A stretch of DNA of 64,000 nt, taken from NCBI RefSeq assembly GCF_013085465.1, contig NZ_CP049838.1, positions 6,944,001 through 7,008,000 on the forward strand, in the 5' to 3' direction. The position numbers and the translations under genes were made by a program. The notes below the pieces were generated by a model, which made no database searches, was not told where the DNA came from, and saw only the letters and a program-made list of their open reading frames with translations. This document shows, piece by piece, positions 4,937 through 49,890 of this stretch; the first letter of the stretch is position 1, and each line of letters begins with the position of its first letter. Source of the stretch: Streptomyces asoensis (GTDB taxonomy: Bacteria > Actinomycetota > Actinomycetes > Streptomycetales > Streptomycetaceae).

Positions 4937-7900
4937 GTGAGTCCGCCGCCGACCTCCACGCCCCTCCTCGACGGAGTGCTGCGGACGCGGCCTTCGACGG
5001 GGACACCGCACACCGCGCCGCCGACCGGCGGCCCCGGAACGAACCTGGTCCAGCAACTGCTGCTCGCCCTGCTGTGCGCGGGATACGCCGTCGGTTCCGC
5101 GCTCGGCTGGGGCTCCGACCGACTCGCGCTGATCATGGGTGACTTCGGGCTGACCGCGGCGGCGGGCACCGCCGCCGTGTCCTGCTTCCTCTACGCGCGC
5201 AGCCGCCGCGTCCGGTTTCGACCCGCCTGGCTGCTGTTCTCGATCTCCTCGGCGATGGCGGCCCTCGGCAACCTGGTCTGGGGCTGGTACGAGGTGGTCC
5301 TGGGGCGGCCCGTGCCCAGCCCCAGCTTCGCCGACCTGTTCTTCCTGTGCTTCGCGCCCCCCGCCATCGTGGGGCTGCTCGTGCTCGCCGCCCGACCCAT
5401 GACGAAGGCGGGCTGGGTCTGCCTGGCCCTGGACGCCTGGCTGATCGCCGGCTCACTGCTCACCCTCTCCTGGAGCCTCGCGCTCGCCCAGGCGGCGAAG
5501 TTCGACGGACCGAGCGTGGCGCACGCCGCGCTGTCGCTCGCGTACCCGCTGCTCGACATCGCCCTGGTGAGCATGGTGCTGGTGCTGCACTTCCGGCGCA
5601 CGGCGGTGAACCGCACGGCGGTCAACACGGCCGTCGCCGCGCTCGCGCTGACCGTCATGTGCGACGCCCTGTTCACCTCGCCGCTGATGCACAACAACTA
5701 CCGCTCGGGCCAGCTCCTCGACGCGGGCTGGTTCGCGGGCTCGCTGCTCCTGGCGTACGCGCCCTGGGCCGCCTCCCGCCGGCAGCGGTCGGCCGCGGAT
5801 GAGGGGCACACGCGTGTGGTGCACGAACACGTACCGGGTCCGCGCCCCACGGGGCGCCCCCACGGGCCGTCGCGCACGGCGGCCGCCGCGGCCGCCGCGG
5901 CCGCCGCGTCCGCGCAGACGTCCGCCCAGCGGCCCGACCAGACGCCTCCCCAGGGAGGTGATCACAGCCGGTATCCGGTCACCCGGCCCATCACCGGCTC
6001 CCTGGCCGCCCTCACGCCCTATCTCGCCGCCGCCGTCTGCACCCTGGGCATCCTCTACAACGTCCTCAACGGCCGCAGCGTCGACCGCGTGGTGCTGCTG
6101 ACCGGTGGCGCGGTCGTGCTCGCCCTCGTGGTGCGCCAGGGGATCATGCTGCTCGACAACATCACCCTCACCCAGGAACTGGCGCAGAAGGAGAACCACT
6201 TCCGCTCCCTGGTGCAGGGCTCCAGCGACGTCATCATGATCGCCGCGCCCAGCGGCGTCCTGCGCTACGTCTCCCCGGCCGCCGCCGGGGTCTACGGACG
6301 GCCTGCCGAGGACCTGGTGGGTTCCGAACTGGCCGACCTCATCCACCCCGAGGACCTGGGCTGCGTGGTGCACGAGGTGCGCCGGTTCCTCGCCGCCGTC
6401 CCCTCGGAGGAACCCACCACGCGCATCGAGTGCCGCTTCCACTCCGGCGACGGAGGCTGGCTGAATGTCGAGTCGACCGTCAACCGCCATCACGGCGGCC
6501 TGATCTTCAACAGCCGGGACGTGACCGAGCGGGTGCGGCTCCAGGCGCAGCTCCAGCACAACGCCGAACACGACCCGCTCACCGACCTGCCCAACCGCGC
6601 CCTGTTCACCCGGCGCGTCCAGCAGGCCCTGTCCGGCCGCCGCAGCTCCGACCGGGGGCCCGCCCTGCGCAACACGGCGGTCCTCTTCATCGACCTCGAC
6701 GGTTTCAAGGCCGTCAACGACACGATCGGCCACGCGGCAGGCGACGAACTGCTGGTCCAGGCCGCCCGCAGGCTCCAGGACGCGGTCCGCAAGGGAGACA
6801 CCGCCTCCCGACTGGGCGGCGACGAGTTCGCGGCACTGATCGTCGGCGACGGCACCCGCGACCGCGCCGCCCGGGAACGGCACATAGTGGAACTCGCCGA
6901 CCGCCTCAGGCTCACCCTGTCGCAGCCCTACCTCATCGACGGCAACGAGGTCCGTGTCGCCGCCTCCATCGGCGTCGCCTTCGCCGAAGCCGGTCTGGGC
7001 GCCGGTGAGCTGCTGCGCAACGCCGACCTCGCCATGTACCGCGCCAAGGCGGGCGGCAAGGGCCGGGTCGAGCTGTACAAGCCGCAGATGCAGCAGGACG
7101 TCGTACGCAAGGCGGAGCTGGCCACGCGGCTGCGTGCCGCGCTGCACGACGGCGAGTTCGCGCTGCTGCACCAGCCCGTGGTGCGCCTGGAGGACGGCCG
7201 GATCTCGTCGGTCGCCGCACAGGCCCGCTGGCGCTCCTCCCAGGGGGTGCTCTTCACGCCCGCCGAGTTCCTGCGGGTCGCGGAGGACAGCGACAAGACG
7301 ACCGAGCTGGGGCGCTGGATGCTGGAGGAGGCCGTCGAGCAGGCCGCCGACCGGGCCGCGAGCGGGCTCACCCTGCCGGTGGTCGTGCGGGTGGGCGCCC
7401 GGCGGCTGCTGGACCGGTCGTTGCCGCTGGGCTCCGTGGAGGCACTGCTGACCCGGCACGGGCTGCCGTCGGGATCCCTGGTGGTCGAGCTCTCCGACAC
7501 CGACCCGAGGGTGCCGCTGGACGAGCTGGAGCGCCGTCTGGGGGCGCTGCGCCGCCTCGGGGTGCGGATCGCCCTCGACGGCTTCGGCAGCGGCTACGCG
7601 GCCCTCACGGCGCTGCGGCGGCTCCCCGTCGACGTGCTCAGGCTCGACCGCTCGCTGGTCGAGGGGGTCGTCGAGTCCGCGCGGCTGCACAAGATCACCA
7701 GCGGCCTGCTGCGGATCGCCACCGACCTCGGGCTCCAGTCCGTCGCCGAGGGCGTGGATCTGCCCGAGCAGGTGGTCGCCCTGCGCGCGATGGGCTGTAC
7801 GCACGGCCAGGGCATGGCGTTCTCCGGGCCGCTCGACGAGTACCGGCTGCGCCGGGCCCTCGCGACCGGCCGCTATCCGGTGCCGCACGGGCCGGCCGAG

Positions 7901-8038
7901 CCCGCGTTCGCGGGCGGTGGCTCGGGGGTGTACACCAGTGGTGTCCATGCCGGTGGCGTCGCCGGCGGTGTCACGGCCGTCCTGGGGAGCGGTAGTGCCC
8001 TTCGCTCACATAATGAGACTCCCGTCCCACCCACTTGA
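4937..8038 (+). CDS. cdgC: Membrane-bound PAS-GGDEF-EAL protein, probable diguanylate cyclase with inactive EAL domain
   Basis: The product has 1033 residues from GTG 4937. The N-terminus holds several hydrophobic segments (about residues 35-300), an Ala run, two more membrane segments, then a PAS domain (about 415-530), GGDEF (about 550-715) and EAL (about 725-975). The cyclase motif GGDEF (627-631) is intact, and an inhibitory-site RxxD (Arg618-Asp621) stands exactly five residues before it. In the EAL domain the signature is AQA (761-763) instead of EAL, the usual DDFG is DGFG (881-884), and the later AEGVE is AEGVD. This predicts synthesis of cyclic di-GMP and no hydrolysis. The position just before ilvB matches SCO5511, which I remember as CdgC, so the symbol is tentative. 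Start alternatives are GTG 4724 and ATG 4754. Confidence 0.85.
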   Translation: MSPPPTSTPLLDGVLRTRPSTGTPHTAPPTGGPGTNLVQQLLLALLCAGYAVGSALGWGSDRLALIMGDFGLTAAAGTAAVSCFLYARSRRVRFRPAWLLFSISSAMAALGNLVWGWYEVVLGRPVPSPSFADLFFLCFAPPAIVGLLVLAARPMTKAGWVCLALDAWLIAGSLLTLSWSLALAQAAKFDGPSVAHAALSLAYPLLDIALVSMVLVLHFRRTAVNRTAVNTAVAALALTVMCDALFTSPLMHNNYRSGQLLDAGWFAGSLLLAYAPWAASRRQRSAADEGHTRVVHEHVPGPRPTGRPHGPSRTAAAAAAAAAASAQTSAQRPDQTPPQGGDHSRYPVTRPITGSLAALTPYLAAAVCTLGILYNVLNGRSVDRVVLLTGGAVVLALVVRQGIMLLDNITLTQELAQKENHFRSLVQGSSDVIMIAAPSGVLRYVSPAAAGVYGRPAEDLVGSELADLIHPEDLGCVVHEVRRFLAAVPSEEPTTRIECRFHSGDGGWLNVESTVNRHHGGLIFNSRDVTERVRLQAQLQHNAEHDPLTDLPNRALFTRRVQQALSGRRSSDRGPALRNTAVLFIDLDGFKAVNDTIGHAAGDELLVQAARRLQDAVRKGDTASRLGGDEFAALIVGDGTRDRAARERHIVELADRLRLTLSQPYLIDGNEVRVAASIGVAFAEAGLGAGELLRNADLAMYRAKAGGKGRVELYKPQMQQDVVRKAELATRLRAALHDGEFALLHQPVVRLEDGRISSVAAQARWRSSQGVLFTPAEFLRVAEDSDKTTELGRWMLEEAVEQAADRAASGLTLPVVVRVGARRLLDRSLPLGSVEALLTRHGLPSGSLVVELSDTDPRVPLDELERRLGALRRLGVRIALDGFGSGYAALTALRRLPVDVLRLDRSLVEGVVESARLHKITSGLLRIATDLGLQSVAEGVDLPEQVVALRAMGCTHGQGMAFSGPLDEYRLRRALATGRYPVPHGPAEPAFAGGGSGVYTSGVHAGGVAGGVTAVLGSGSALRSHNETPVPPT

Positions 8039-8071
8039 CAGTCGGTGCGTGCCGGGGGGAGGGTCAATGCC

Positions 8072-8280: not shown

Positions 8281-10158
8281 ATGCCGATGACCGAGCAGGC
8301 CACCGGGGCCCATCCGCAGCCGCGGCCCCGATCCGGAGGACAGCACTCCGCGACCGTCGAGCACGTGACGGGTGCGCAGTCCCTCATCCGTTCTCTCGAG
8401 GAGGTCGGCGCCGACACGGTATTCGGCATTCCCGGCGGTGCGATCCTTCCCGCCTACGACCCGCTGATGGACTCGACGAGGGTCCGCCACGTCCTGGTCC
8501 GGCACGAGCAGGGCGCGGGCCACGCGGCCACCGGATACGCGCAGGCCACCGGCCGGGTCGGCGTCTGCATGGCCACCTCGGGTCCCGGCGCCACCAACCT
8601 GGTGACCCCGATCGCCGACGCCCACATGGACTCGGTGCCGCTCGTGGCGATCACCGGGCAGGTGGCGTCGAAGGCGATCGGCACGGACGCCTTCCAGGAG
8701 GCGGACATCGTCGGCATCACCATGCCGATCACCAAGCACAACTTCCTGGTCACCAAGGCCGAGGACATCCCGCGGGTCATCGCGCAGGCGTTCCACATCG
8801 CCTCCACCGGCCGGCCCGGCCCGGTCCTGGTCGACATCGCCAAGGACGCCCTCCAGGCGAAGACCACGTTCTCCTGGCCGCCCACCATGGACCTGCCCGG
8901 CTACCGCCCGGTGACCAAGCCGCACGCCAAGCAGATCCGCGAGGCGGCCAAGCTGATCACCGCCGCCAAGCGGCCGATCCTGTACGTCGGCGGCGGTGTC
9001 CTGAAGGCCGGCGCCACCGCCGAGCTGAAGGTCCTCGCGGAGCTGACGGGCGCGCCCGTCACCACCACGCTGATGGCGCTGGGCGCGTTCCCCGACAGCC
9101 ACCCGCAGCACCTGGGCATGCCGGGCATGCACGGCTCGGTGGCCGCTGTCACCGGTCTCCAGAAGGCCGACCTGATCGTCGCGCTCGGCGCCCGCTTCGA
9201 CGACCGCGTCACCGGCAAGCTCGACAGCTTCGCCCCCTACGCCAAGATCGTGCACGCGGACATCGACCCGGCGGAGATCGGCAAGAACCGCGCCGCCGAC
9301 GTGCCGATCGTCGGTGACGCGCGTGAGGTCATCGCCGATCTGGTCCAGGCGGTCCAGAAGGAGCACAGCGAGGGCCAGCAGGGCGACTACACCGCCTGGT
9401 GGAAGGACCTGAGCCGCTGGCGCGACACCTACCCGCTCGGCTACGACCAGCCCGCCGACGGTTCGCTCTCCCCGCAGCAGGTCATCGAGCGCATCGGACA
9501 GCTCGCCCCCGAGGGCACGATCTTCGCGGCGGGCGTCGGCCAGCACCAGATGTGGGCCGCGCACTTCGTCCAGTACGAGAAGCCCGCCACCTGGCTGAAC
9601 TCGGGCGGCGCGGGCACGATGGGGTACGCGGTCCCGGCCGCGATGGGCGCCAAGGCGGGTGTCCCGGGCCAGACCGTCTGGGCCATCGACGGCGACGGCT
9701 GCTTCCAGATGACCAATCAGGAGCTCACGACCTGCGCCCTGAACAACATCCCGATCAAGGTCGCCATCATCAACAACGGCGTCCTCGGGATGGTCCGCCA
9801 GTGGCAGACCCTGTTCTACAACCAGCGCTACTCCAACACCGTGCTGCACAGCGGCCCGCAGGCCGCCGCGCCCGACAGCGGCTCCGCCGCCAAGCAGCCC
9901 AGCGCCGGCACCCGCGTCCCCGACTTCGTGAAGCTGTCGGAGGCCATGGGCTGCTACGCGATCCGCTGCGAGTCCCCGGACGACCTCGACAAGGTCATCG
10001 AGGAGGCGAACTCCATCAACGACCGTCCCGTCGTCGTCGACTTCATCGTCCACGAGGACGCGATGGTGTGGCCGATGGTCGCCGCCGGCACCTCCAACGA
10101 CGAGATCCTGGCCGCCCGGGACGTCCGCCCCGACTTCGGCGACAACGAAGACGACTGA
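8281..10158 (+). CDS. ilvB: Acetolactate synthase large (catalytic) subunit
   Basis: The 625-residue thiamine-diphosphate enzyme condenses pyruvate with pyruvate or 2-ketobutyrate, the first common step of valine, leucine and isoleucine synthesis. The N-terminal domain has [16 protein letters not shown] and [14 protein letters not shown], which includes the catalytic Glu before the cofactor. The central domain has the FAD-binding region, with [13 protein letters not shown]. The C-terminal domain carries the ThDP/Mg motif [14 protein letters not shown] through [15 protein letters not shown] 8281 is used; ATG 8287 two codons later is equally possible. It is followed by ilvN after 21 bases, so the two subunits are probably cotranscribed and translated together. 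Confidence 0.97.
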
Positions 10159-18597: not shown

Positions 18598-20238
18598 ATG
18601 GACGCGGTAACCCAGGTCCCCACCCCCGTCAACGAGCCGGTGCACGGCTACGCCCCCGGCTCGCCGGAGCGTGCCCGGCTGGAGGCCAAGCTCAAGGAAC
18701 TGGCCGACAACCCGATCGACCTGCCCTGCACCATCGGCGGCGAGCAGCGGATGGGCGGCGGTGAGCGGTTCGACGTCGTGCAGCCGCACAACCACAAGGC
18801 CCGCCTCGGCACCTACGCCGACGCCACGCAGCAGGACGCCCAGGACGCCATCGACGCGGCGCTCGCCGCCGCGCCCGCCTGGCGCGCGATGTCCTTCGAC
18901 GACCGCGCCGCCATCATCCTGCGCGCCGCCGAACTGCTCGCCGGCCCCTGGCGCGAGACGCTCGCCGCCTCCACCATGCTCGGCCAGTCGAAGACCGCCC
19001 AGCAGGCGGAGATCGACTGTCCCTGTGAACTGGTCGACTTCTGGCGCTTCAACGTCGCCTACGCCCGCCAGATCCTGGCCGAGCAGCCCCCGGCGAACTC
19101 CCCGGGCGTCTGGAACCGCCTCGACCACCGCCCGCTCGAGGGCTTCGTCTACGCGATCACGCCGTTCAACTTCAGCGCCATCGCGGGCAACCTGCCGACC
19201 GCGCCCGCGCTGATGGGCAACGTGGTCGTGTGGAAGCCGTCCCCGACGCAGACCCACGCCGCCGTGCTGCTCATGCGGCTGCTGGAGGAGGCCGGTCTGC
19301 CCAAGGGCGTCATCAACCTGGTCACCGGCGACGGCATCGAGGTCTCCAAGGTGGCCCTGGAGCACCGCGACCTCGCCGGCATCCACTTCACCGGCTCGAC
19401 GAAGACCTTCCAGTACCTGTGGAAGACGGTCGGCGCCAACATCGAGAAGTACCGCTCCTACCCGCGTCTGGTCGGCGAGACCGGCGGCAAGGACTTCGTC
19501 GTCGCCCACCCGAGCGCGGACCGCGCGGTACTGAAGACGGCGCTCACCCGTGGCGCCTTCGAGTACCAGGGCCAGAAGTGCAGCGCGACCTCCCGGGCCT
19601 ACATCCCGGCGTCGATCTGGAACTCCGGCTTCAAGGAGGAGTTCGCGGCCGAGGTCGACTACCTCACGATGGGTGACGTCACCGACCTCTCCAACTTCGT
19701 CGGCGCCGTCATCGACGAGCGTTCCTTCGCCAAGAACAAGGCGGCGATCGACCGCGCGAAGGCGGACCCGACCTGCACGATCGTCGCGGGCGGCTCCTAC
19801 GACGACTCGGTCGGCTACTTCGTCCGCCCGACCGTCGTCGAGTGCACCGACCCGGAGAACGAGGTCTTCACGACCGAGTACTTCGGCCCGTTCCTCGCCG
19901 TGCACGTGTACGACGACAGCTCCGACGAGGCGTACGACGAGATGCTGACGCAGATGGAGTCGGTGTCGGACTACGCGCTGACGGGCTCGGTCATCTCGGG
20001 CGACCGCGCGGCCGCCGCGTACACGATGGAGAAGCTGCGCTACGCGGCCGGCAACTTCTACATCAACGACAAGTCGACCGGCGCCGTCGTCGGCCAGCAG
20101 CCCTTCGGCGGCGGCCGCGCCTCCGGCACCAACGACAAGGCCGGCGCGCCCCAGAACCTGATGCGCTGGACCCTGACCCGCGCCATCAAGGAGACGCTGG
20201 TCGCGCCGACCGACTACGCGTACCCGCACATGGGCTGA
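18598..20238 (+). CDS. pruA: L-glutamate gamma-semialdehyde dehydrogenase (1-pyrroline-5-carboxylate dehydrogenase)
   Basis: The 546-residue aldehyde dehydrogenase superfamily enzyme oxidises glutamate semialdehyde to glutamate with NAD, completing proline breakdown. Visible sites are VYAITPFNFSAIAGNLPTA, FTGSTKTFQYLWK (cofactor loop), the general base Glu in LVGETGGKDFV, and the catalytic Cys in GQKCSATSRAY. The C-terminal motif QPFGGGRASGTNDKAG is typical of the PruA subgroup. ATG 18598 follows AAGGAGTAACGGAAG. A strong terminator follows 18 bases after the stop. Confidence 0.96.
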   Translation: MDAVTQVPTPVNEPVHGYAPGSPERARLEAKLKELADNPIDLPCTIGGEQRMGGGERFDVVQPHNHKARLGTYADATQQDAQDAIDAALAAAPAWRAMSFDDRAAIILRAAELLAGPWRETLAASTMLGQSKTAQQAEIDCPCELVDFWRFNVAYARQILAEQPPANSPGVWNRLDHRPLEGFVYAITPFNFSAIAGNLPTAPALMGNVVVWKPSPTQTHAAVLLMRLLEEAGLPKGVINLVTGDGIEVSKVALEHRDLAGIHFTGSTKTFQYLWKTVGANIEKYRSYPRLVGETGGKDFVVAHPSADRAVLKTALTRGAFEYQGQKCSATSRAYIPASIWNSGFKEEFAAEVDYLTMGDVTDLSNFVGAVIDERSFAKNKAAIDRAKADPTCTIVAGGSYDDSVGYFVRPTVVECTDPENEVFTTEYFGPFLAVHVYDDSSDEAYDEMLTQMESVSDYALTGSVISGDRAAAAYTMEKLRYAAGNFYINDKSTGAVVGQQPFGGGRASGTNDKAGAPQNLMRWTLTRAIKETLVAPTDYAYPHMG

Positions 20239-39150: not shown

Positions 39151-40023
<873 letters not shown>

Positions 40024-40968: not shown

Positions 40969-41580
40969 TTACGCGTTCTTGATCGCCGAGATGTCGAAGT
41001 TCAGCTTGATCTTGTCCGAGACCAGAACGCCACCCGTCTCCAGTGCCGCGTTCCAGGTCAGGCCCCACGCCGAGCGCAGGATCTCGGCCTTGCCCTCGAA
41101 GCCGACACGCTCGTTGCCGAACGGGTCCTTGGCGGCGCCGTTGAACTCCAGGTCGATGCTGAGCGGCTTGGTGACGCCGAGGATGGTCAGGTCGCCGGTG
41201 ATCCGGTAGTCGTCGCCGCCCAGCGCTTCCGCCGAGGTGGAGCGGAAGGTCATCGTCGGGAACTCGTCGGTCTTGAAGAAGTCGGCGGTCTTCAGGTGGC
41301 CGTCACGGTCGGCGGACCCGGTGTCGATGCTTTCCATCGTGATGTCGAGGGTGGCGCTGGACTTCGACGGGTCGGTGCCGTCCAGGTGCAGCGAGCCGGT
41401 GAAGTCGTTGAACTTGCCCTTGACGTTCGTGACCATCGCGTGGCGCGCGACGAAGCCCAGCGTCGAGTGAGCGGGGTCGATCGAGTAGTCGCCGGTCAGG
41501 GCGGCGAGCTCGGGGCTCACCGTGGCGTCGGCGCCGGCGGTGACGGTCTCGTCGGTGGTCTTGCGGCCGAAGATACCCAT
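40969..41580 (-). CDS. YceI-family protein
   Basis: The product has 203 residues from ATG 41580. The YceI beta-barrel signature is clear: YSIDPAHSTLGFVARHAMVT near residue 32, GSLHLDGTDPSKSSATLDI, DFFKTDEFPTMTFRST and LTILGVTKPLSIDLEF. The family binds polyisoprenoid or other lipophilic ligands. The start of this protein (MGIFGRKTTDETVTAGADA) is short and not a classical signal peptide. A palindrome lies at 41664. Regulation by a MarR-type protein is only a guess, as no such gene is present nearby. Confidence 0.9.
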   Translation of the reverse strand: MGIFGRKTTDETVTAGADATVSPELAALTGDYSIDPAHSTLGFVARHAMVTNVKGKFNDFTGSLHLDGTDPSKSSATLDITMESIDTGSADRDGHLKTADFFKTDEFPTMTFRSTSAEALGGDDYRITGDLTILGVTKPLSIDLEFNGAAKDPFGNERVGFEGKAEILRSAWGLTWNAALETGGVLVSDKIKLNFDISAIKNA

Positions 41581-41735: not shown

Positions 41736-43664
41736 GTGGGGACTGCGACAGCGCGACCGCCGACCGTGTTCCATCTCTTCACCGTGCCGGTCCGGAAGGA
41801 GACCGAGGCAGCGCGGGAAGTCCTGCGCGCCGCGGGCGTGGACCACACCGCCCTGCACCCGTCGGGCGGCGCGTCCCGGACCGAGGTCGTACTGACCGGG
41901 ACCGCCGGGACCGACATCCTCGCCGAGGTCGTCGCGGCGCTGCGGCACCGGCTGCGCCATGGTGTGGTGGTGCACAGGGCGGGACCCGCGGACATCGTCG
42001 TCCGGTCCGATCCCGGTGTCGCGCACGGGGTGATCGTGATCCGCGGACCGCACCGGGACGTGGAGGCACGGGACGCCGCCGGACTGCGTCGCGCGCTGAA
42101 CATCGTTCTCGCGGAAGAGCCGGGACGACCGCCGGGCGGGTCGTCGGACGGGTCGTGGGATCGGTCGCCGGGCGGGGCGGATGGGCCGGATGGGCCGGGA
42201 GGGCCGGGCAGGTCGGGCGGGCCGGGCGGGGCGGATGGGCCGGACGGGCCGGGAGGGCCGGGCAGGTCGGATGGGCCGGGCAGGTCGGATGGGCCGGATG
42301 GGCCGGATGGGCCGGGAGGGCCGGGCAGGTCGGGCAGGTCGGGCGGGCCGGGCAGGTCGGGCAGGTCGGGCAGGTCGGGCGGGGCGGGCGGGGCGGGTGA
42401 GCTGGGGTCCGGCCCGTACGCGCCGAGCGTGCTGTTCCGGGAGAGCCAGGACCCGGCGCTGGCCGCCGAGGCGATCCGGCTGTCGCGTGTCTTCGCCGAT
42501 CCGGACTTCGTCCGGGGCGCGCAGCCCGGCCGCGACCTGCTCGAGGACCTGTCCGCGCTGGCCGAGATCGCCGCGAAGCCGCGCGTCCTGCTCGACCTCC
42601 TCCTGCTCGCCCACGCCTTCTCCCGGACCGACGGCGGCGACCACCGCGTGAGCGAACTCCGGCTGCCGGGCATGGACGACGCCCGCCGGCTCGCCTCGAC
42701 CGTGGAGGTCTTCGTCCAGCCGTCCACCGACCCGGAGGCCAGGACACTGACCCGGCCGCTGCCGGACGGCCGCCGGGGATTCCTCATCGGAGTGCCTCCG
42801 CAGACCGGTGAGTTGATGGCCAACCTCTCCTGGGTCCTGCCCACCCTCTTCCAGGTCGCGGAGGACGGCGGTGGCGGATCCGCCGCGCCGGACCGGGAGC
42901 GGGTCTGGGCCGATGTGGACGGCTCGGTCGCCTCCTACCTCCGGTCCTGGCGCCCGGGAAGAGGAGCCACCCTGCTGCCGCCCCAGCCCCTCATCCCGAT
43001 GACCATGCCCGACGGAGAGGTCCGCCACGGTCCCGGGGACCCCTTCATGGTCTTCGACGCGTGCACCCTCTTCCTGATGGCCCGCGAGCTCGTCCCGATC
43101 CTGAACGGCAACCTCGGCGGCGAAGCCGCAGCCGGATTCCCGCTGCCGCCGTTCACCGCAGGCCTCCCGCGTGAGGTACGCCGTGAACTGGCCGCCGACT
43201 GCGGGGCGTACACGCTCACCATGAACGCCCTCCTGCTCGGCACCGGCGAGGACGGGCCCTTCCCGCCGGACATCGGCAATGTCAAACGCCACTTCCACGC
43301 CGGCCGGCTCAGCCGCTTCGGGCGGACCAGACGGCTGGAGGAGCAGGCGCGACACGACGCGGGGCTGCTGCTGCGGAGCGTGCACCGGACGACGGAGGCG
43401 GTCCTGTCCTACTACGCCGTCGTCGACATGTTCGCCGCGCTCGCCCGGGCGCGGGGCGACGGCCTCCTCGCCCGGCACCTGGAGGCGATCGCCGACCGTC
43501 GTGAGGCGGTCTGCGCGTACATGCTCTTCGTCAAGCGGACGGAGCTGCTCGCGGACTGGGGCGTGCGCACCTGGCGCGACGGGGAGGAGGAGGGGTGGGA
43601 GCGCCTGTGGGAGTACGTGCGTCACGCGCAGCGGCACCTGGTGCCCCTGCTCGTCGAAGAGTGA
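41736..43664 (+). CDS. Unrecognised protein with minisatellite linker, first gene of the Trypco cassette
   Basis: The product has about 642 residues from GTG 41736; GTG 41766 is another possible start and neither has a clear ribosome-binding site. Three parts are visible. Residues 1-130 look like a small alpha/beta domain ([39 protein letters not shown]). Residues 146-220 are a low-complexity linker of 25 tripeptides. Residues 225-642 are a helix-rich globular region ([53 protein letters not shown]) with no family I recognise. The end lies 48 bases before the Trypco2-like gene, so it may be the effector or target-recognition component of the cassette. That role is inference. Confidence 0.75.
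42171..42395. repeat. 25-unit 9-bp minisatellite in the 41736 gene
   Basis: Twenty-five in-frame 9-bp units encode tripeptides from the set GGP, DGP, GRS and GGA with no interruption. The unit is close to GGNGGGCCG or GGCAGGTCG. The first position is Gly or Asp, the second Gly or Arg, the third Pro, Ser or Ala. This is low-complexity linker sequence. It is not a strict collagen Gly-X-Y pattern. Length variation by slippage would change linker length without breaking the frame. Confidence 0.85.
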
Positions 43665-43712
43665 GCCGCCGATCCCTGTGCCGCAAGGGAGTCACGCCGT
43701 TACGGTGGGTGC

Positions 43713-44042
43713 ATGAACGACATCACGGTCGGGGACGCCATCGACCACCTGCGCGCCGAGCTGACCGCGGCACGGGACCGTGCCGCGGAGGGCGGGATGC
43801 GTTTCGAACTCGGCGACATATCACTGGAGTTGACCGTCGAGCTGCGCCGGGAGAGCACGGGCAAGGGGTCCATCAAGGCCTGGGTGGTGTCGGGAGAGGC
43901 GGGCGCCACCCGCTCCGAGACGGCGACCCACCGGCTCGCGTTCACCCTGCGCGCGGTGGACCCGGACGGCCAGGGGGTCAGGATCGCCAACTCGGCCGCC
44001 CCGACAGGCGGTCTGGCGGGCGGCGGAACGCTGACGCGATAG
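43713..44042 (+). CDS. Trypco2-like protein (trypsin-co-occurring domain 2)
   Basis: The product has 109 residues from ATG 43713. The layout is one helix (TVGDAIDHLRAELTAARDRA), then strands GGMRFELGDISLELTVELRR and a second long beta section (KGSIKAWVVSGEAGATRSET), ending GLAGGGTLTR. This matches what I remember of the Trypco2 domain, found next to trypsin-like effectors in actinobacterial NTP-dependent conflict systems. The next gene encodes just such a protein. The domain has no catalytic residues and may be an adaptor or regulator. The gene stands 48 bases after the upstream gene and 66 bases before the protease-NTPase gene. Confidence 0.75.
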   Translation: MNDITVGDAIDHLRAELTAARDRAAEGGMRFELGDISLELTVELRRESTGKGSIKAWVVSGEAGATRSETATHRLAFTLRAVDPDGQGVRIANSAAPTGGLAGGGTLTR

Positions 44043-44108
44043 CCGCGCCGCCCTTCGGCGCGATGCCGGCGGGGGATGACGGGGTGACCGGGGGACGGGG
44101 GTCCTTGG

Positions 44109-47100
44109 ATGGAACTGGGCCGGATCGTGGCGGTCCTGCTGCCCGGCGTTTCGGGGTACGCGGGCAATGGAAGCGGCTATCTCCTCGGCCGCAGACTGGT
44201 GTTGACGGCCCGTCATGTCCTGGCCGGGCGCGACTCCTGCGAGGTTCAGGTGCCGGGCGGCGTCCCGGTCCGCTGCACGATCGTCTGGCGGGGCGGGACG
44301 CTCGACGGTGCCGATGTGGACGCGGCGTTGCTGCTCGCCGAGGCGGACGTGCGCGAGTCGGTGGCCCCGGTCCGCTGGGGTCGGCTCGTCACCGCCCGGC
44401 ACCAGCCCTGCGACGTGGCCGGTTACCCCGAGGTGGGTCGGCGGGCCGACGGCAGCCTGGATCTCCAGCAGCCGCGTGCCACCCTCGCCCCCGGCACCGG
44501 CGCGCTCTCGCACCGCTACACGGCGGAGCTGGCCGGCGCGCCACCCCGTGACCCGGGCGGACGGACCCCGTCGCCCTGGAGCGGTCAGTCGGGCGCCGCG
44601 CTGTTCTGCGGCGCCCCGACCCGCGGGCTGTCGCTGCTGACCGGCGTGGTCGTGACCGACGTGACAGGCTGGGGGCTGCCGCGCTGGGAGGCCGTACCGG
44701 TGTACGCGCTGCTGGCCGACCGGGCGTTCACGGACCTCGTGACCCGGCACACGGGAGCCGCGCCCGTGTGGGAGCCGGTCGACCTCCAGGGCCTTGTCAC
44801 CCCCGCCACCGGATGGCAGGTCCGCTCACCGGCCACGCTGCTGGACCAGCGCGCGGAAGTGGTCCGCTTCCACGGCCGTGCGGACCTGCTGCGGGAACTC
44901 GTCGAGGACTGGTGCGAGGGCGAGGGCGACGGCGGTGCGGGCGGTGGAGTCCGGCTGGCCGTGGTCACCGGCCCGGGCGGCGCGGGCAAGTCCCGGCTCG
45001 CCCGGGAACTGTCCGCCCGGATGCGGGACCGGCACGGCTGGGTCTGCGGCTGGCTGGACGACCGCGGTCCGGACGCGGACCACGCGGTGCTGGCCGAGGT
45101 CGACCGACCCCTGATCCTGGTGGCGGACTACGCCGAGCTCCGCATTCCGCAACTGACCGCCGTGCTCGGGGTCCTGGACCGGCGTCCCGAAGGCCGCCCC
45201 GCCGTACGACTGCTGCTGACCGCCCGTGGCCTGGGCGACGAGACGGGCGGCTGGTGGGACCAGCTCAGGACCCGCACCCGTGAGACCCGGGCCCTGACCT
45301 ACGACGCCGTTCGCCATGAACTGCCGCCGCTGACGGACTTACCGGACCGCGCCGCCCACTACCGGGCCGCGCTGAGCGACCTGGCCCGACGGCTCCCGGA
45401 GGCCCTGCCCAGGGCGCTGCGCGAAGCGACCGGGGACTGGTCGGGGCGGGTCGGGCTCGTCGCCCCGCGGGATGTCGACGCACCCGGGTACGGCTCCGCC
45501 CTCACCCTGCACATGACGGCCCTCACCGACCTCCTGGCGACGCACCCCGCGACCCGCCCCCCGCACGACGCGAACCTCCTCGTGGAGGAGCAACTCCTGC
45601 TGCACGAGCGCGCCTACTGGGAGGACAGCGCGGCGGGCCGCCCGGCGCTCGCGTCCGCGGGACCCGTGGCGCTGGCCGACGCGGTCGGCACGGCCGTCCT
45701 CACCGCCGGGGCCGAACCCGCCCTGGCACGCCCGCTGTTGCGCTCCTCGCCGGGGTTCGCCACCGCGGACGAGGCCATGGTGGGGGAGGGCACCACCTGG
45801 CTGGCCGGCATGTACCCGGGGCCCGCCGGCAGTTGCTGGGGCGCGCTCCAGCCGGACCGGCTCGGCGAGTACCACGTCGGGGAACGGACCGGGATCGACG
45901 CGGAACTCGTCTCGTCGCCCCTGGTCACCCTCGCCGCCGGTGCCGGGCAGGACGTGCGGGGCGGAACGGACACGCTGCTCCTCGCCGCCCTGGTCACCGT
46001 CTCACGCGCGGGCGACCTGCCCCGCCACTGGGAGCCGGTGGCCCGCGCACTCGACAGGGCGTTCGCCCGTGCACCGTCCCTCGCCGCACGGGTCATGCAG
46101 GCCGCCACCCTGACGGACTGCCCGGAGCCCCTGGTGGAAGCCCTCCACCGGCTCACGGACGCCCCCGCCACCGACCCCGGGCTGCTGCTGGAACTGCTCG
46201 ACCGGCTGGGCGCGGGCCGGAGCCGGGTGCTGGCCGGCTGGGCCACCCGTACCGCCGCCATCGCGGCGCGGGCCCTCCCGCCCTCGCAGCGGGCGGCCGC
46301 GCTCGTGCATGAGGCGGTCTGGCGTCAGACGGCCGGAGACCACCTGGCGGCCGTCCGCCGCTGTGAGGAGGCGCTCCGACTGCTGGAGTCCGGGCAGAGC
46401 GCCGCCCCGCCCACGACCCTCGTCGAGATCCTGACCCTGAAGGCCCGTTCGCAGCACTGGACGGCCGACTTCGACCCGGCCCTCGAAACCCTGCGTGCGG
46501 CCGAGGACCTGGTGGAGCGGCTTCCGGCCGCACCCGACCGGGACCGGGCGAGCGCGGAGATCCTCGGCGAGCGCGCCCGGATCCTCTTCAGGCGCGACGA
46601 TCACGACGCCGCGCGCCCGCTCCAGGAGCGCAGGGTCACCCTGCTCCGGTCCCTCGCCGACACGGGCGACGCGGCCCTGCTCGAACGGCTCGCGGACGCC
46701 GAGGCGGAGCTCGCCCTCACCCTCGACCACCAGGGCAGGTTCCGGGAGGCCGTCGACGTCCTCTCGGAGACGACGGCCCGGTCGCTGAGCCGACTGGCCG
46801 AGGAGAGTCCCGACGCGGTGGACCTCGATGTTCTCGGCAGCATCGTCGGCCGCGCCAACCGGCTCAGGGCGATGGACCGGCTGGAGGAGTCCCTGGAGGT
46901 CCAGCGCGTCGCCCTCGCCGTGGCCGACCGCCCGGAGAGCCTGGGCACCCCCGTCGCCGCGGCCGCTCTGGCGCTCGTACTGAACAACCTCGGCGCGACG
47001 CTTGTGGCCCTGGACCGGCCGCAGGAGGCGCTGGAACCGCTCCGGCGAGGACTCGACATCCGCCGTGAACAGGCCGCCGACGCCGGAGAGCCCACCGAGT

Positions 47101-48056
47101 CGTTGTGGAGATCGCTGCTCCAGTACTCGGGTGTGCTCCGGGAGCTCGGGCGCCACGACGAGGCGCGGGAGGTCGCCGAGGAGTGTCTCGCCGTCGGCAC
47201 GGAGCTGGCCCGTGTCGATCCGGCGCAGTGGCGGCTGGAGGCGGGGGCGCAGGTCGTCCTCGGCGAGATGCTGTACGTCACCGCCGCCGCGGAGCCCGAG
47301 CAGGACCATCGCGAGGACCTGCGCCGTGCGCTGAAGATGATCAACCAGGCGATCACCCGGTACCGCCGCCCCCTCAAGGACCAGCCCGGTGACCGACTGG
47401 TCGAGTTCACCCTCGCGCTGAGCGCGGGTGTGGAGATCCACCACATGCTCGGGCGAGACCGGTCGGCGCGCCACCTGTGCCGCATGTTGCTGGCCGCACG
47501 GCGGCTGCTCACCGAGCACGACCCCGAGCAGCACGGCGACGAGCTGGCTGCCGACCTGGCGGCCGCCGCCAGGCAGGAGCAGCGGAGCGGGCGCACAAGC
47601 CGCGCGGAGCGCCACCACGCGGAGGCCGTCGCGGTCCGGCGGATGCTGCTCTCCCTGCGCGGCGGGGGCGCTGACCGCATCCACCTGGCCGGAGCCCTCG
47701 CCGAGTACGCCGTATTGCTCTCCGCCGACGGGCGGCAGCGCGAGGCCCTGCCCCACCTGCGGGAGGCGCTGGAGCTGACCCATGAGGCGGAGCCGGACAC
47801 CGAGCCGGGGCAGTACGCGCTCACCCTCGCCACCTGCCACTACAATCTCGCGGACACTCTTCCGTGGACCGGTGCCTTCGAGGAGGCGCTGCGGGAGGTC
47901 GACGTGTCCCGGAGCTGTCTGGCTCCGCTCGCCGACCTGGACCCGGAGCTGTACGCGCGGGAGACCGCCGACTGCGAGAGCCTGCGGGCGGAGATCGTCA
48001 AGGCGGCGGAGCACGGTCTGCCGGACCGGCCCGGACGGCGGCGGTGGCGCCGGTGA
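44109..48056 (+). CDS. Trypsin-like protease, STAND NTPase and TPR multidomain protein, with a TTA codon
   Basis: The 1315-residue product is tripartite. An N-terminal serine-protease domain (about 1-230) has the complete triad: His36 (LTARHV), Asp71 (DVDAAL) and Ser161 (SGQSGAAL). A P-loop NTPase follows, with Walker A GPGGAGKS at 288-295 and Walker B ILVADYAE with Asp340. From about residue 700 the protein is a long array of TPR-like helical pairs (for example AVWRQTAGDHLAAVRRCEEAL). No signal peptide or membrane segment is seen, so it acts in the cytoplasm. The likely mechanism is nucleotide-dependent, stimulus-triggered proteolysis. Codon 411 (45339-45341) is TTA, read in Streptomyces only by the bldA tRNA. 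Confidence 0.88.
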   Translation: MELGRIVAVLLPGVSGYAGNGSGYLLGRRLVLTARHVLAGRDSCEVQVPGGVPVRCTIVWRGGTLDGADVDAALLLAEADVRESVAPVRWGRLVTARHQPCDVAGYPEVGRRADGSLDLQQPRATLAPGTGALSHRYTAELAGAPPRDPGGRTPSPWSGQSGAALFCGAPTRGLSLLTGVVVTDVTGWGLPRWEAVPVYALLADRAFTDLVTRHTGAAPVWEPVDLQGLVTPATGWQVRSPATLLDQRAEVVRFHGRADLLRELVEDWCEGEGDGGAGGGVRLAVVTGPGGAGKSRLARELSARMRDRHGWVCGWLDDRGPDADHAVLAEVDRPLILVADYAELRIPQLTAVLGVLDRRPEGRPAVRLLLTARGLGDETGGWWDQLRTRTRETRALTYDAVRHELPPLTDLPDRAAHYRAALSDLARRLPEALPRALREATGDWSGRVGLVAPRDVDAPGYGSALTLHMTALTDLLATHPATRPPHDANLLVEEQLLLHERAYWEDSAAGRPALASAGPVALADAVGTAVLTAGAEPALARPLLRSSPGFATADEAMVGEGTTWLAGMYPGPAGSCWGALQPDRLGEYHVGERTGIDAELVSSPLVTLAAGAGQDVRGGTDTLLLAALVTVSRAGDLPRHWEPVARALDRAFARAPSLAARVMQAATLTDCPEPLVEALHRLTDAPATDPGLLLELLDRLGAGRSRVLAGWATRTAAIAARALPPSQRAAALVHEAVWRQTAGDHLAAVRRCEEALRLLESGQSAAPPTTLVEILTLKARSQHWTADFDPALETLRAAEDLVERLPAAPDRDRASAEILGERARILFRRDDHDAARPLQERRVTLLRSLADTGDAALLERLADAEAELALTLDHQGRFREAVDVLSETTARSLSRLAEESPDAVDLDVLGSIVGRANRLRAMDRLEESLEVQRVALAVADRPESLGTPVAAAALALVLNNLGATLVALDRPQEALEPLRRGLDIRREQAADAGEPTESLWRSLLQYSGVLRELGRHDEAREVAEECLAVGTELARVDPAQWRLEAGAQVVLGEMLYVTAAAEPEQDHREDLRRALKMINQAITRYRRPLKDQPGDRLVEFTLALSAGVEIHHMLGRDRSARHLCRMLLAARRLLTEHDPEQHGDELAADLAAAARQEQRSGRTSRAERHHAEAVAVRRMLLSLRGGGADRIHLAGALAEYAVLLSADGRQREALPHLREALELTHEAEPDTEPGQYALTLATCHYNLADTLPWTGAFEEALREVDVSRSCLAPLADLDPELYARETADCESLRAEIVKAAEHGLPDRPGRRRWRR

Positions 48057-48285: not shown

Positions 48286-49890
48286 ATGACCGTTTTGGAA
48301 GAGACGACGGGCGAGCCGATCGCAGAGCCTTCGGAACCCACGGATGCGCGCGGCCGCGTGGCCGAGCTGCACGAGATCCGTGCCCAGGCGCTGGCCGGCC
48401 CGAGCGAGAAGGCGACCCAGGCGCAGCACGCCAAGGGCAAGCTGACCGCCCGGGAGCGGATCGAGCTGCTCCTCGACCCGGGGTCCTTCCAGGAGGTCGA
48501 GCAGCTGCGCCGGCACCGGGCGACCGGGTTCGGCCTGGAGGCCAAGAAGCCGTTCACCGACGGTGTGATCACCGGTTGGGGCACGGTGGAGGGCCGTACG
48601 GTCTTCGTCTACGCCCATGACTTCCGTATCTTCGGCGGCGCGCTGGGCGAGGCCCACGCCACGAAGATCCACAAGATCATGGACATGGCCATCGCGGCCG
48701 GTGCCCCGCTGGTCTCGCTCAACGACGGCGCCGGCGCCCGTATCCAGGAGGGCGTCTCCGCCCTCGCCGGCTACGGCGGCATCTTCCAGCGCAACACCAG
48801 GGCGAGCGGGGTGATCCCGCAGATCTCGGTCATGCTGGGCCCGTGCGCGGGCGGCGCGGCCTACAGCCCCGCCCTCACCGACTTCGTCTTCATGGTCCGC
48901 GAGACCTCGCAGATGTTCATCACCGGGCCGGACGTGGTCAAGGCCGTCACCGGCGAGGAGATCAGCCAGAACGGCCTCGGCGGCGCCGACGTGCACGCCG
49001 AGACCTCCGGCGTCTGCCACTTCGCGTACGACGACGAGGAGACCTGCATCGCGGAGGTCCGCTACCTCCTCTCGCTGCTCCCGCAGAACAACCGCGAGAA
49101 CCCGCCGCGCGCCGAGTCCAGCGACCCGGCCGACCGTCGCGGCGACGTCCTGCTCGACCTGGTCCCGGCGGACGGCAACCGTCCGTACGACATGACCAAG
49201 GTCATCGAGGAGATCGTCGACGACGGCGAGTACGTGGAGATCCACGAGCGCTGGGCCCGCAACATCATCTGCGCGATGGCCCGGCTCGACGGCCAGGTCG
49301 TCGGCATCGTGGCCAACCAGCCGCAGGCCCTCGCCGGTGTCCTGGACATCGAGGCGTCGGAAAAAGCTGCGCGCTTTGTCCAGATGTGTGACGCTTTCAA
49401 TATCCCGATCGTCACCTTCCTGGACGTCCCCGGATTCCTCCCGGGCGTCGACCAGGAGCACGGCGGAATCATCCGGCACGGAGCGAAGCTGCTCTACGCC
49501 TACTGCAACGCGACCGTGCCGCGGATCTCCCTGATCCTGCGCAAGGCCTACGGAGGTGCCTACATCGTCATGGACAGCCAGTCCATCGGCGCCGACCTCA
49601 CCTACGCCTGGCCGACGAACGAGATCGCCGTGATGGGCGCCGAAGGTGCCGCCAACGTCATCTTCCGGCGTCAGATCGCCGAGGCCGAGGACCCCGAGGC
49701 CATGCGGGCCCGCATGGTCAAGGAGTACAAGTCCGAGCTGATGCACCCGTACTACGCGGCGGAACGCGGCCTGGTCGACGACGTCATCGACCCCGCCGAG
49801 ACCCGCGAGGTACTCATCAAGTCGCTGGCCATGCTCCAGTCGAAGCACGCGGACCTGCCCTCGCGCAAGCACGGCAACCCCCCGCAGTAA
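48286..49890 (+). CDS. accB: Acyl-CoA carboxylase carboxyltransferase (beta) subunit
   Basis: The 534-residue enzyme transfers carboxyl from biotin to acetyl-, propionyl- or butyryl-CoA to give extender units and fatty acid precursors. It has the crotonase-fold carboxyltransferase motifs VSLNDGAGARIQEGVSALAG, GPCAGGAAYSPALTDFVFM, and AYGGAYIVMDSQSIGADL. The specificity residue after GGAY is Ile (Ile427). Ile at the matching position is the AccB type with broad substrate use, whereas Asp is the PccB type restricted to propionyl-CoA (from memory of S. coelicolor work). ATG 48286 is the start. accE follows after 67 bases. Confidence 0.95.
   Translation: MTVLEETTGEPIAEPSEPTDARGRVAELHEIRAQALAGPSEKATQAQHAKGKLTARERIELLLDPGSFQEVEQLRRHRATGFGLEAKKPFTDGVITGWGTVEGRTVFVYAHDFRIFGGALGEAHATKIHKIMDMAIAAGAPLVSLNDGAGARIQEGVSALAGYGGIFQRNTRASGVIPQISVMLGPCAGGAAYSPALTDFVFMVRETSQMFITGPDVVKAVTGEEISQNGLGGADVHAETSGVCHFAYDDEETCIAEVRYLLSLLPQNNRENPPRAESSDPADRRGDVLLDLVPADGNRPYDMTKVIEEIVDDGEYVEIHERWARNIICAMARLDGQVVGIVANQPQALAGVLDIEASEKAARFVQMCDAFNIPIVTFLDVPGFLPGVDQEHGGIIRHGAKLLYAYCNATVPRISLILRKAYGGAYIVMDSQSIGADLTYAWPTNEIAVMGAEGAANVIFRRQIAEAEDPEAMRARMVKEYKSELMHPYYAAERGLVDDVIDPAETREVLIKSLAMLQSKHADLPSRKHGNPPQ

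Follow-up and report, generated by a model that had tools for sequence, protein, structure and literature searches.

Trypco2 has been described for ternary systems built from vWA, MoxR and VMAP (eLife 2020, PMC7159879), and in related systems inactive peptidases have been proposed to act as dominant-negative regulators or peptide-binding domains (PMC7159879). In Hachiman and AVAST, fused trypsin-like domains cleave a partner encoded upstream and thereby activate it (PMC12799240), and trypsin-like peptidases of a CARD-NLR-like system work with an NLR-like ATPase-TPR protein (PMC13236601). In this study, a 64,000-nucleotide stretch of Streptomyces asoensis (contig NZ_CP049838.1, positions 6,944,001 to 7,008,000, hereafter the window) was analysed for a cassette in which a Trypco2 gene and a gene for a trypsin-like peptidase-STAND NTPase-TPR protein are preceded by a third partner starting at position 41736. 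Judged from sequence comparison, the 41736 protein consists of a small domain fused to an M48-like metallopeptidase that has apparently been inactivated. No description of such a partner of Trypco2 and trypsin-STAND proteins was found in the literature searched, the available text of the Trypco papers included, and the present analysis names this hitherto unrecognised component of the module.

Cassette features

41736..43664, + strand, third partner gene, 642 aa, GTG start, coding for a small N-terminal domain and an M48-like pseudometallopeptidase joined by a linker
41736..42113, + strand, N-terminal domain, residues 1-126, whose homologue is a gene of its own next to HExxH relatives
42167..42396, + strand, 54-bp tandem repeat (4.3 copies) in the linker, encoding a low-confidence (disordered) Gly/Pro/Arg/Ser stretch
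42426..43661, + strand, pseudo-M48 domain, residues 231-642
43083..43097, + strand, RELVP, residues 450-454, at the place of the HExxH zinc motif
43185..43199, + strand, E484-x-x-A-D488, counterpart of the third-ligand E-x-x-A-D, with the Glu present
43713..44042, + strand, Trypco2 gene (PF19631), 109 aa
44109..48056, + strand, trypsin-like peptidase-nSTAND NTPase-TPR gene, 1315 aa
44169..44651, + strand, trypsin-like domain, residues 21-181, with the triad and Pfam matches just under cut-off
44928..45227, + strand, nSTAND_NTPase5 match (Pfam), residues 274-373
46863..47069, + strand, best-scoring TPR_12 match (Pfam), residues 919-987, inside the C-terminal TPR region

The third partner as a probable inactivated metallopeptidase

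The 41736 protein matched no family at E<=1 over its whole length in Pfam, NCBIfam or PADLOC, which extends to the entire product the statement of the original prediction that its C-terminal 400 residues show no known family; with no Pfam family at all, the M48 gathering score is not reached and a TPR match is also absent. A PADLOC scan at the cassette returned nothing beyond a stray 13-bit match (E 0.013). A query with residues 222-642 retrieved 24 database proteins, every named host being a Streptomyces, and 23 of these relatives carry the helix-borne R-E-x-x-P of the window protein in the alignment (one of them as R-A-x-x-P). The most diverged of the 24, P0027, is 39% identical and lacks the N-terminal domain; exactly where the window protein has RExxP, it carries HELSH, followed by R-E-V-E-A-D.

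A set of 40 HExxH relatives was assembled from 8 proteins found with the P0027 query (P0027 included) and 32 found with a distant TPR-bearing relative (itself included). All 40 carry H, E, H and E-x-x-A-D, and when 27 of them were aligned, the P0027 residues H232, E233, H236, E267, A270 and D271 were among just 16 invariant columns. Together these residues constitute a predicted gluzincin zinc site; in Escherichia coli BepA the zinc ligands are H136 and H140 of HExxH and E201, plus the plug residue H246 (PMC7950410). Matches to PF01435 were obtained for 7 of the 19 HExxH relatives scanned, the best scoring 18.2 bits against a cut-off of 20.3, and the 27 aligned relatives showed no invariant His-Pro columns past the Glu for an HPx4R active-site plug; the family was therefore named M48-like and not M48. 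A fold match to solved M48 was found, the best structural match of P0027 being E. coli BepA. TPR_12 lies behind the HExxH domain in 28 of the 32 proteins from the search with the TPR-bearing relative and is lacking in P0027-P0034.

Both zinc His are replaced, by R and P, in every one of the 25 distinct window-type proteins (window, P0004-P0026, P0037). The motif reads RExxP in 24 and RAxxP in one, the central Glu thus being kept in 24/25, and the third-ligand Glu is kept in 17 and lost in 8. In a 39-row tree (38 of the rows being different, with a few near-duplicates), the RExxP rows make up one side of a 100/100 branch and one change suffices. This change would have run from HExxH to RExxP and would have abolished peptidase activity, the direction being taken from the functional motif since the tree is midpoint-rooted and its branches are long. 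That the protein is still an enzyme, employing other metal ligands or other chemistry at a remodelled RExxP site, is highly improbable: fixation of R and P in all 25 members, with the central Glu in all but one, is more uniform than under neutral decay and speaks for this reading, but the loss of the third-ligand Glu in 8 members and of the central Glu in one speaks against it. Arg and Pro, moreover, are not usual zinc ligands.

The ratio of nonsynonymous to synonymous substitution rates (dN/dS), calculated by the Nei-Gojobori method and to be read with the high GC content in mind, was 0.24-0.48 for the pseudo-M48 domain against six orthologues, alongside 0.32-0.39 for the trypsin-STAND-TPR protein, 0.17-0.24 for Trypco2 and 0.40-0.96 for the N-terminal domain (five comparisons). 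The pseudo-M48 domain is under purifying selection and is not decaying. A 638-aa antisense frame is also open opposite the 41736 gene; the latter was judged a real gene and not a chance GC-rich frame because a database search found relatives of its product at identities between 39% and 98% (the latter in Streptomyces cacaoi) and because of the dN/dS values of the pseudoprotease domain.

Probable origin by fusion of a two-gene system

The N-terminal domain is predicted to adopt a b-a-b-b-a-b (ferredoxin-like) core with extra strands and a helix. It gave no Pfam match to EACC1 (PF19953), and an hhalign comparison with that family gave a probability of 2% and a score of 17.5, the highest among 30 column shuffles being 14.4; 2 of the 30 EACC1 rows look misoriented and one is empty. 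The linker region that follows (42111-42425) has a GC content of 0.83, and the linker is longer than in the aligned relatives, the 54-bp repeat also being longer than in the 98%-identical S. cacaoi relative.

A small separate gene was found directly upstream of the HExxH protease gene at all five intact loci, of which L035 is on plasmid NBC_01220 and L037 on plasmid NBC_00841; its end overlaps the protease frame in L030, L031, L032 and L035. The pairs of small ferredoxin-like gene and HExxH M48-like protease gene are located as follows:

L030:8031-10515
L031:8417-11078
L032:8049-10572
L035:6589-8290
L037:about 6460-8070

All five small proteins match a profile that includes the window-type N-domain, and when the fused N-domains were compared profile to profile with four of them, the probability was 99.2 (E 1.2e-19). 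A profile built solely from those small proteins picked out the domain in 24/25 window-type versus 0/41 HExxH-type proteins; in P0006, the sole window-type exception, the N-domain lies in frame upstream of the annotated start. Because the small upstream gene matches the N-domain at 5/5 HExxH loci, the window gene is identified as a fusion of the two genes of a protease system, now apparently inactive and joined to a Trypco2 / trypsin-STAND-TPR pair.

Neither Trypco2 nor the window's trypsin-STAND protein was present in the stretches examined at the five HExxH loci, and at L035 two other trypsin-like protease genes lie a few kilobases away. The two-gene HExxH system, which occurs on Streptomyces chromosomes and plasmids, often with a C-terminal TPR on the protease, is unnamed in the available text of the literature searched. 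A separate cluster, L029:2579-12535, contains caspase-like and trypsin-like open reading frames (both identified by eye), a sub-cut-off EACC1 match and an HExxH-family gene fragment (8592-9344).

The Trypco2 / trypsin-STAND-TPR pair and its linkage to the third gene

The identities given to the two downstream genes in the original prediction were borne out: Trypco2 matches PF19631 with 89.8 bits (E 1.3e-25) against a Pfam gathering cut-off of 24.2, and the 1315-aa protein matches nSTAND_NTPase5 (PF25199) with 35.3 bits against 34, three TPR families also exceeding the Pfam cut-off. The trypsin families score just below their gathering cut-offs (Trypsin_2, 25.4 versus 27.6 bits; Trypsin, 19.3 versus 20.6 bits), but we read the N-terminal domain as trypsin-like from its triad and its Trypco2 partner. 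The triad His36, Asp71 and Ser161 (in GQSG), the Walker A motif at 288-295 (GPGGAGKS) and the Walker B Asp340, all previously reported as intact, stand at these positions and are kept in 7/7 aligned cassettes. On re-checking of the sequence, the three open reading frames, the spacings between them (48 bases from the 41736 gene to Trypco2 and 66 bases from Trypco2 to the trypsin-STAND-TPR gene) and every residue named were correct.

The order pseudo-M48, Trypco2, trypsin-STAND-TPR was found at 11/11 distinct window-type loci examined, a part of the window-type database proteins (window; L002/L026; L003; L004/L022; L005/L025; L006; L007/L023; L024; L027; L028; plasmid L036); the original prediction was to fall if 41736-type genes occurred in many genomes without Trypco2, and at these loci each stood beside it. 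The P0027 query matched 14 of 392 sampled Streptomyces genomes, 8 of the 14 being cassette genomes, and a close trypsin-STAND protein (at least 78% identical) was found in those same 8 genomes, all other matches being at most 47% identical. The wider trypsin-STAND family reached E<=1e-20 in 94 of the 392 genomes (partial matches counted; three candidates scored per genome). Twenty wider loci were also inspected, made up of the second copy in the window's own genome and the 19 next best trypsin-STAND loci. Trypco2 was directly upstream of the trypsin-STAND gene in 20/20, and searches for the pseudo-M48 protein and for the small domain gave no match at any of these loci, although a few of the stretches (L071, L076, L080) extend no further than 1-2 kb upstream of Trypco2. 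The pair therefore seems to be the older module, to which the third gene was added in a clade-specific manner. The flanking genes of the window cassette recur at only one of 10 other cassette loci and the plasmid cassette is surrounded by transposase genes, so that the cassette probably moves as a unit.

The tight linkage and the first place of the third gene in the row would also fit a dedicated antitoxin-like inhibitor that silences the trypsin-STAND protein until titrated or degraded, and dominant-negative roles have been proposed for inactive peptidases (PMC7159879). However, all 20 sampled wider trypsin-STAND loci lack such a gene in the stretches examined and Trypco2, found at every one of them, would be the better candidate, leaving this explanation doubtful.

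Within the window's own genome (a 10.04-Mb, one-contig assembly), the 41736 gene is present in one copy. A second Trypco2 / trypsin-STAND pair lies at L088 (G000:C1:479616-481301), the third partner being absent from the stretch examined.

Rates of evolution and proposed function

Mean p-distances over 55 locus pairs separated slow parts of the cassette (trypsin 0.17, STAND 0.21, Trypco2 0.21) from fast ones (pseudo-M48 0.36, TPR 0.38, N-domain 0.46). Distances of the pseudo-M48 and TPR parts correlated with r 0.97, yet every pair of parts gave at least 0.82. As it is fast-evolving, apparently dead and tracks the TPR sensor, the pseudo-M48 protein is best read as a putative recognition or regulatory subunit and not as a catalytic effector. 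Of the two roles suggested in the original prediction, a new effector or a new sensor, an effector acting by catalysis has become unlikely with the loss of the zinc motif and a sensor or regulator correspondingly more likely.

Another route to an effector role would be release: the trypsin domain cuts the 41736 protein and a fragment acts on the cell, as with the MBL nuclease proenzymes of Hachiman and AVAST. The gene order is the same, with the N-terminal trypsin domain encoded downstream of the partner; proenzymes that are encoded upstream and activated by proteases of this kind are a published class (PMC12799240); and the linker in the window is Arg-rich with low predicted confidence. Nevertheless, the protein has no catalytic signature, its sole recognisable active site being lost in all 25 members; the Arg-rich linker is unconserved, most aligned relatives having short linkers with hardly any Arg; Trypco2 intervenes between the two genes; and the pair's occurrence without a 41736-type gene in the stretches examined at the 20 wider loci argues against a general executioner. 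Release of an effector is thus unlikely, if slightly less so than the inhibitor.

The preferred reading, to which we assign a probability of about 0.6, is that the cassette is an NLR-like conflict system, probably directed against invaders, and that the 41736 protein is an added recognition or regulatory subunit descended from the two-gene HExxH system. The 1315-aa protein would serve as switch and executioner, with its TPR solenoid as the sensor: a trigger would release the STAND NTPase, leading to oligomerisation and to switching on of the N-terminal trypsin-like domain, with cell arrest or death as the possible outcome, and Trypco2 would be a small dedicated regulator assisting the trypsin domain. 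Small ferredoxin-like and HExxH M48-like genes would have been fused and the zinc site lost once, the dead protease being retained as a module for binding peptides or proteins, which would hold the trigger or a substrate without cutting it. In a putative physical complex, the trypsin-STAND protein may have a ligand or substrate presented to it, or withheld from it, by the pseudo-M48 protein. By analogy with the decoy domains of plant NLRs, there is also a small chance that the pseudoprotease is a bacterial decoy, that is, a dead copy of the small-domain/M48-like system serving as bait for invader inhibitors of the live system (or for the same ligand) and wired to the trypsin-STAND executioner.

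The cassette clearly exemplifies a conflict-linked protease that apparently lost its metal site once and was retained under selection inside another system. The analysis also uncovers an apparently live Streptomyces counterpart, the small gene with its HExxH M48-like protease, and such an active/inactive pair makes the role of a dead protease in an NLR-like system directly testable.

Genomic neighbourhood

39151-40011, - strand, trypsin-type protease gene, upstream of the cassette
40969-41580, - strand, YceI-like gene, upstream of the cassette
48286-49890, carboxyltransferase gene, downstream of the cassette

The cassette had been placed between cimA and accB. A carboxyltransferase gene does follow it, but cimA was not found next to it, the upstream neighbours being the YceI-like and trypsin-type genes; the search for cimA covered part of the window. 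The open reading frame at 18598-20238, considered as a cimA candidate, was rejected as an aldehyde dehydrogenase. The YceI-like and trypsin-type neighbours are also present at the cassette locus of Streptomyces sp. yr375, the single one of the 10 others to share them. Queries with 25 flanking open reading frames, a part of those in the window, returned YceI, trypsin, carboxyltransferase, glycosidases and two NIT-type histidine kinases, the remainder being without a match; none matched MoxR, vWA or VMAP, for which a distant locus is possible.

Comparison with known systems

The original prediction had matched the cassette to the NTP-dependent conflict systems of actinobacteria. This holds for the pairing of Trypco2 with a trypsin-like peptidase, but assignment to the vWA-MoxR-VMAP ternary type is not supported by the flanking queries. 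The VMAP ternary systems (PMC7159879) share with the cassette Trypco2 beside a trypsin-like peptidase, an NTPase switch, a presumed conflict role and inactive peptidases as partners; they differ in having MoxR, vWA and VMAP, none of which matched the flanking open reading frames scanned, whereas in the window the trypsin domain shares one protein with TPR and a STAND NTPase that looks active, and the relative of metallopeptidases is encoded separately and in tight linkage. Those AVAST and Hachiman variants that have an MBL proenzyme upstream (PMC12799240) likewise possess an N-terminal trypsin-like fusion to a defence protein, which in AVAST is a STAND protein, and a partner gene directly upstream, but the upstream partner in the window is a pseudo-M48 protein and not an MBL nuclease, and Trypco2 lies between. 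In the CARD-NLR-like LypABC (PMC13236601), a trypsin-like peptidase also works with an NLR-like ATPase-TPR protein; there, however, the two are separate proteins and a CARD-like domain is involved, and the available text mentions neither Trypco2 nor a pseudo-M48 protein. With E. coli BepA, an M48 peptidase with TPR (PMC7950410), sequence similarity is under the Pfam cut-off and the window protein differs in lacking both zinc His and a TPR match, whereas the structural match of P0027 and the HExxH-then-TPR layout of most relatives from the TPR-bearing search are shared.
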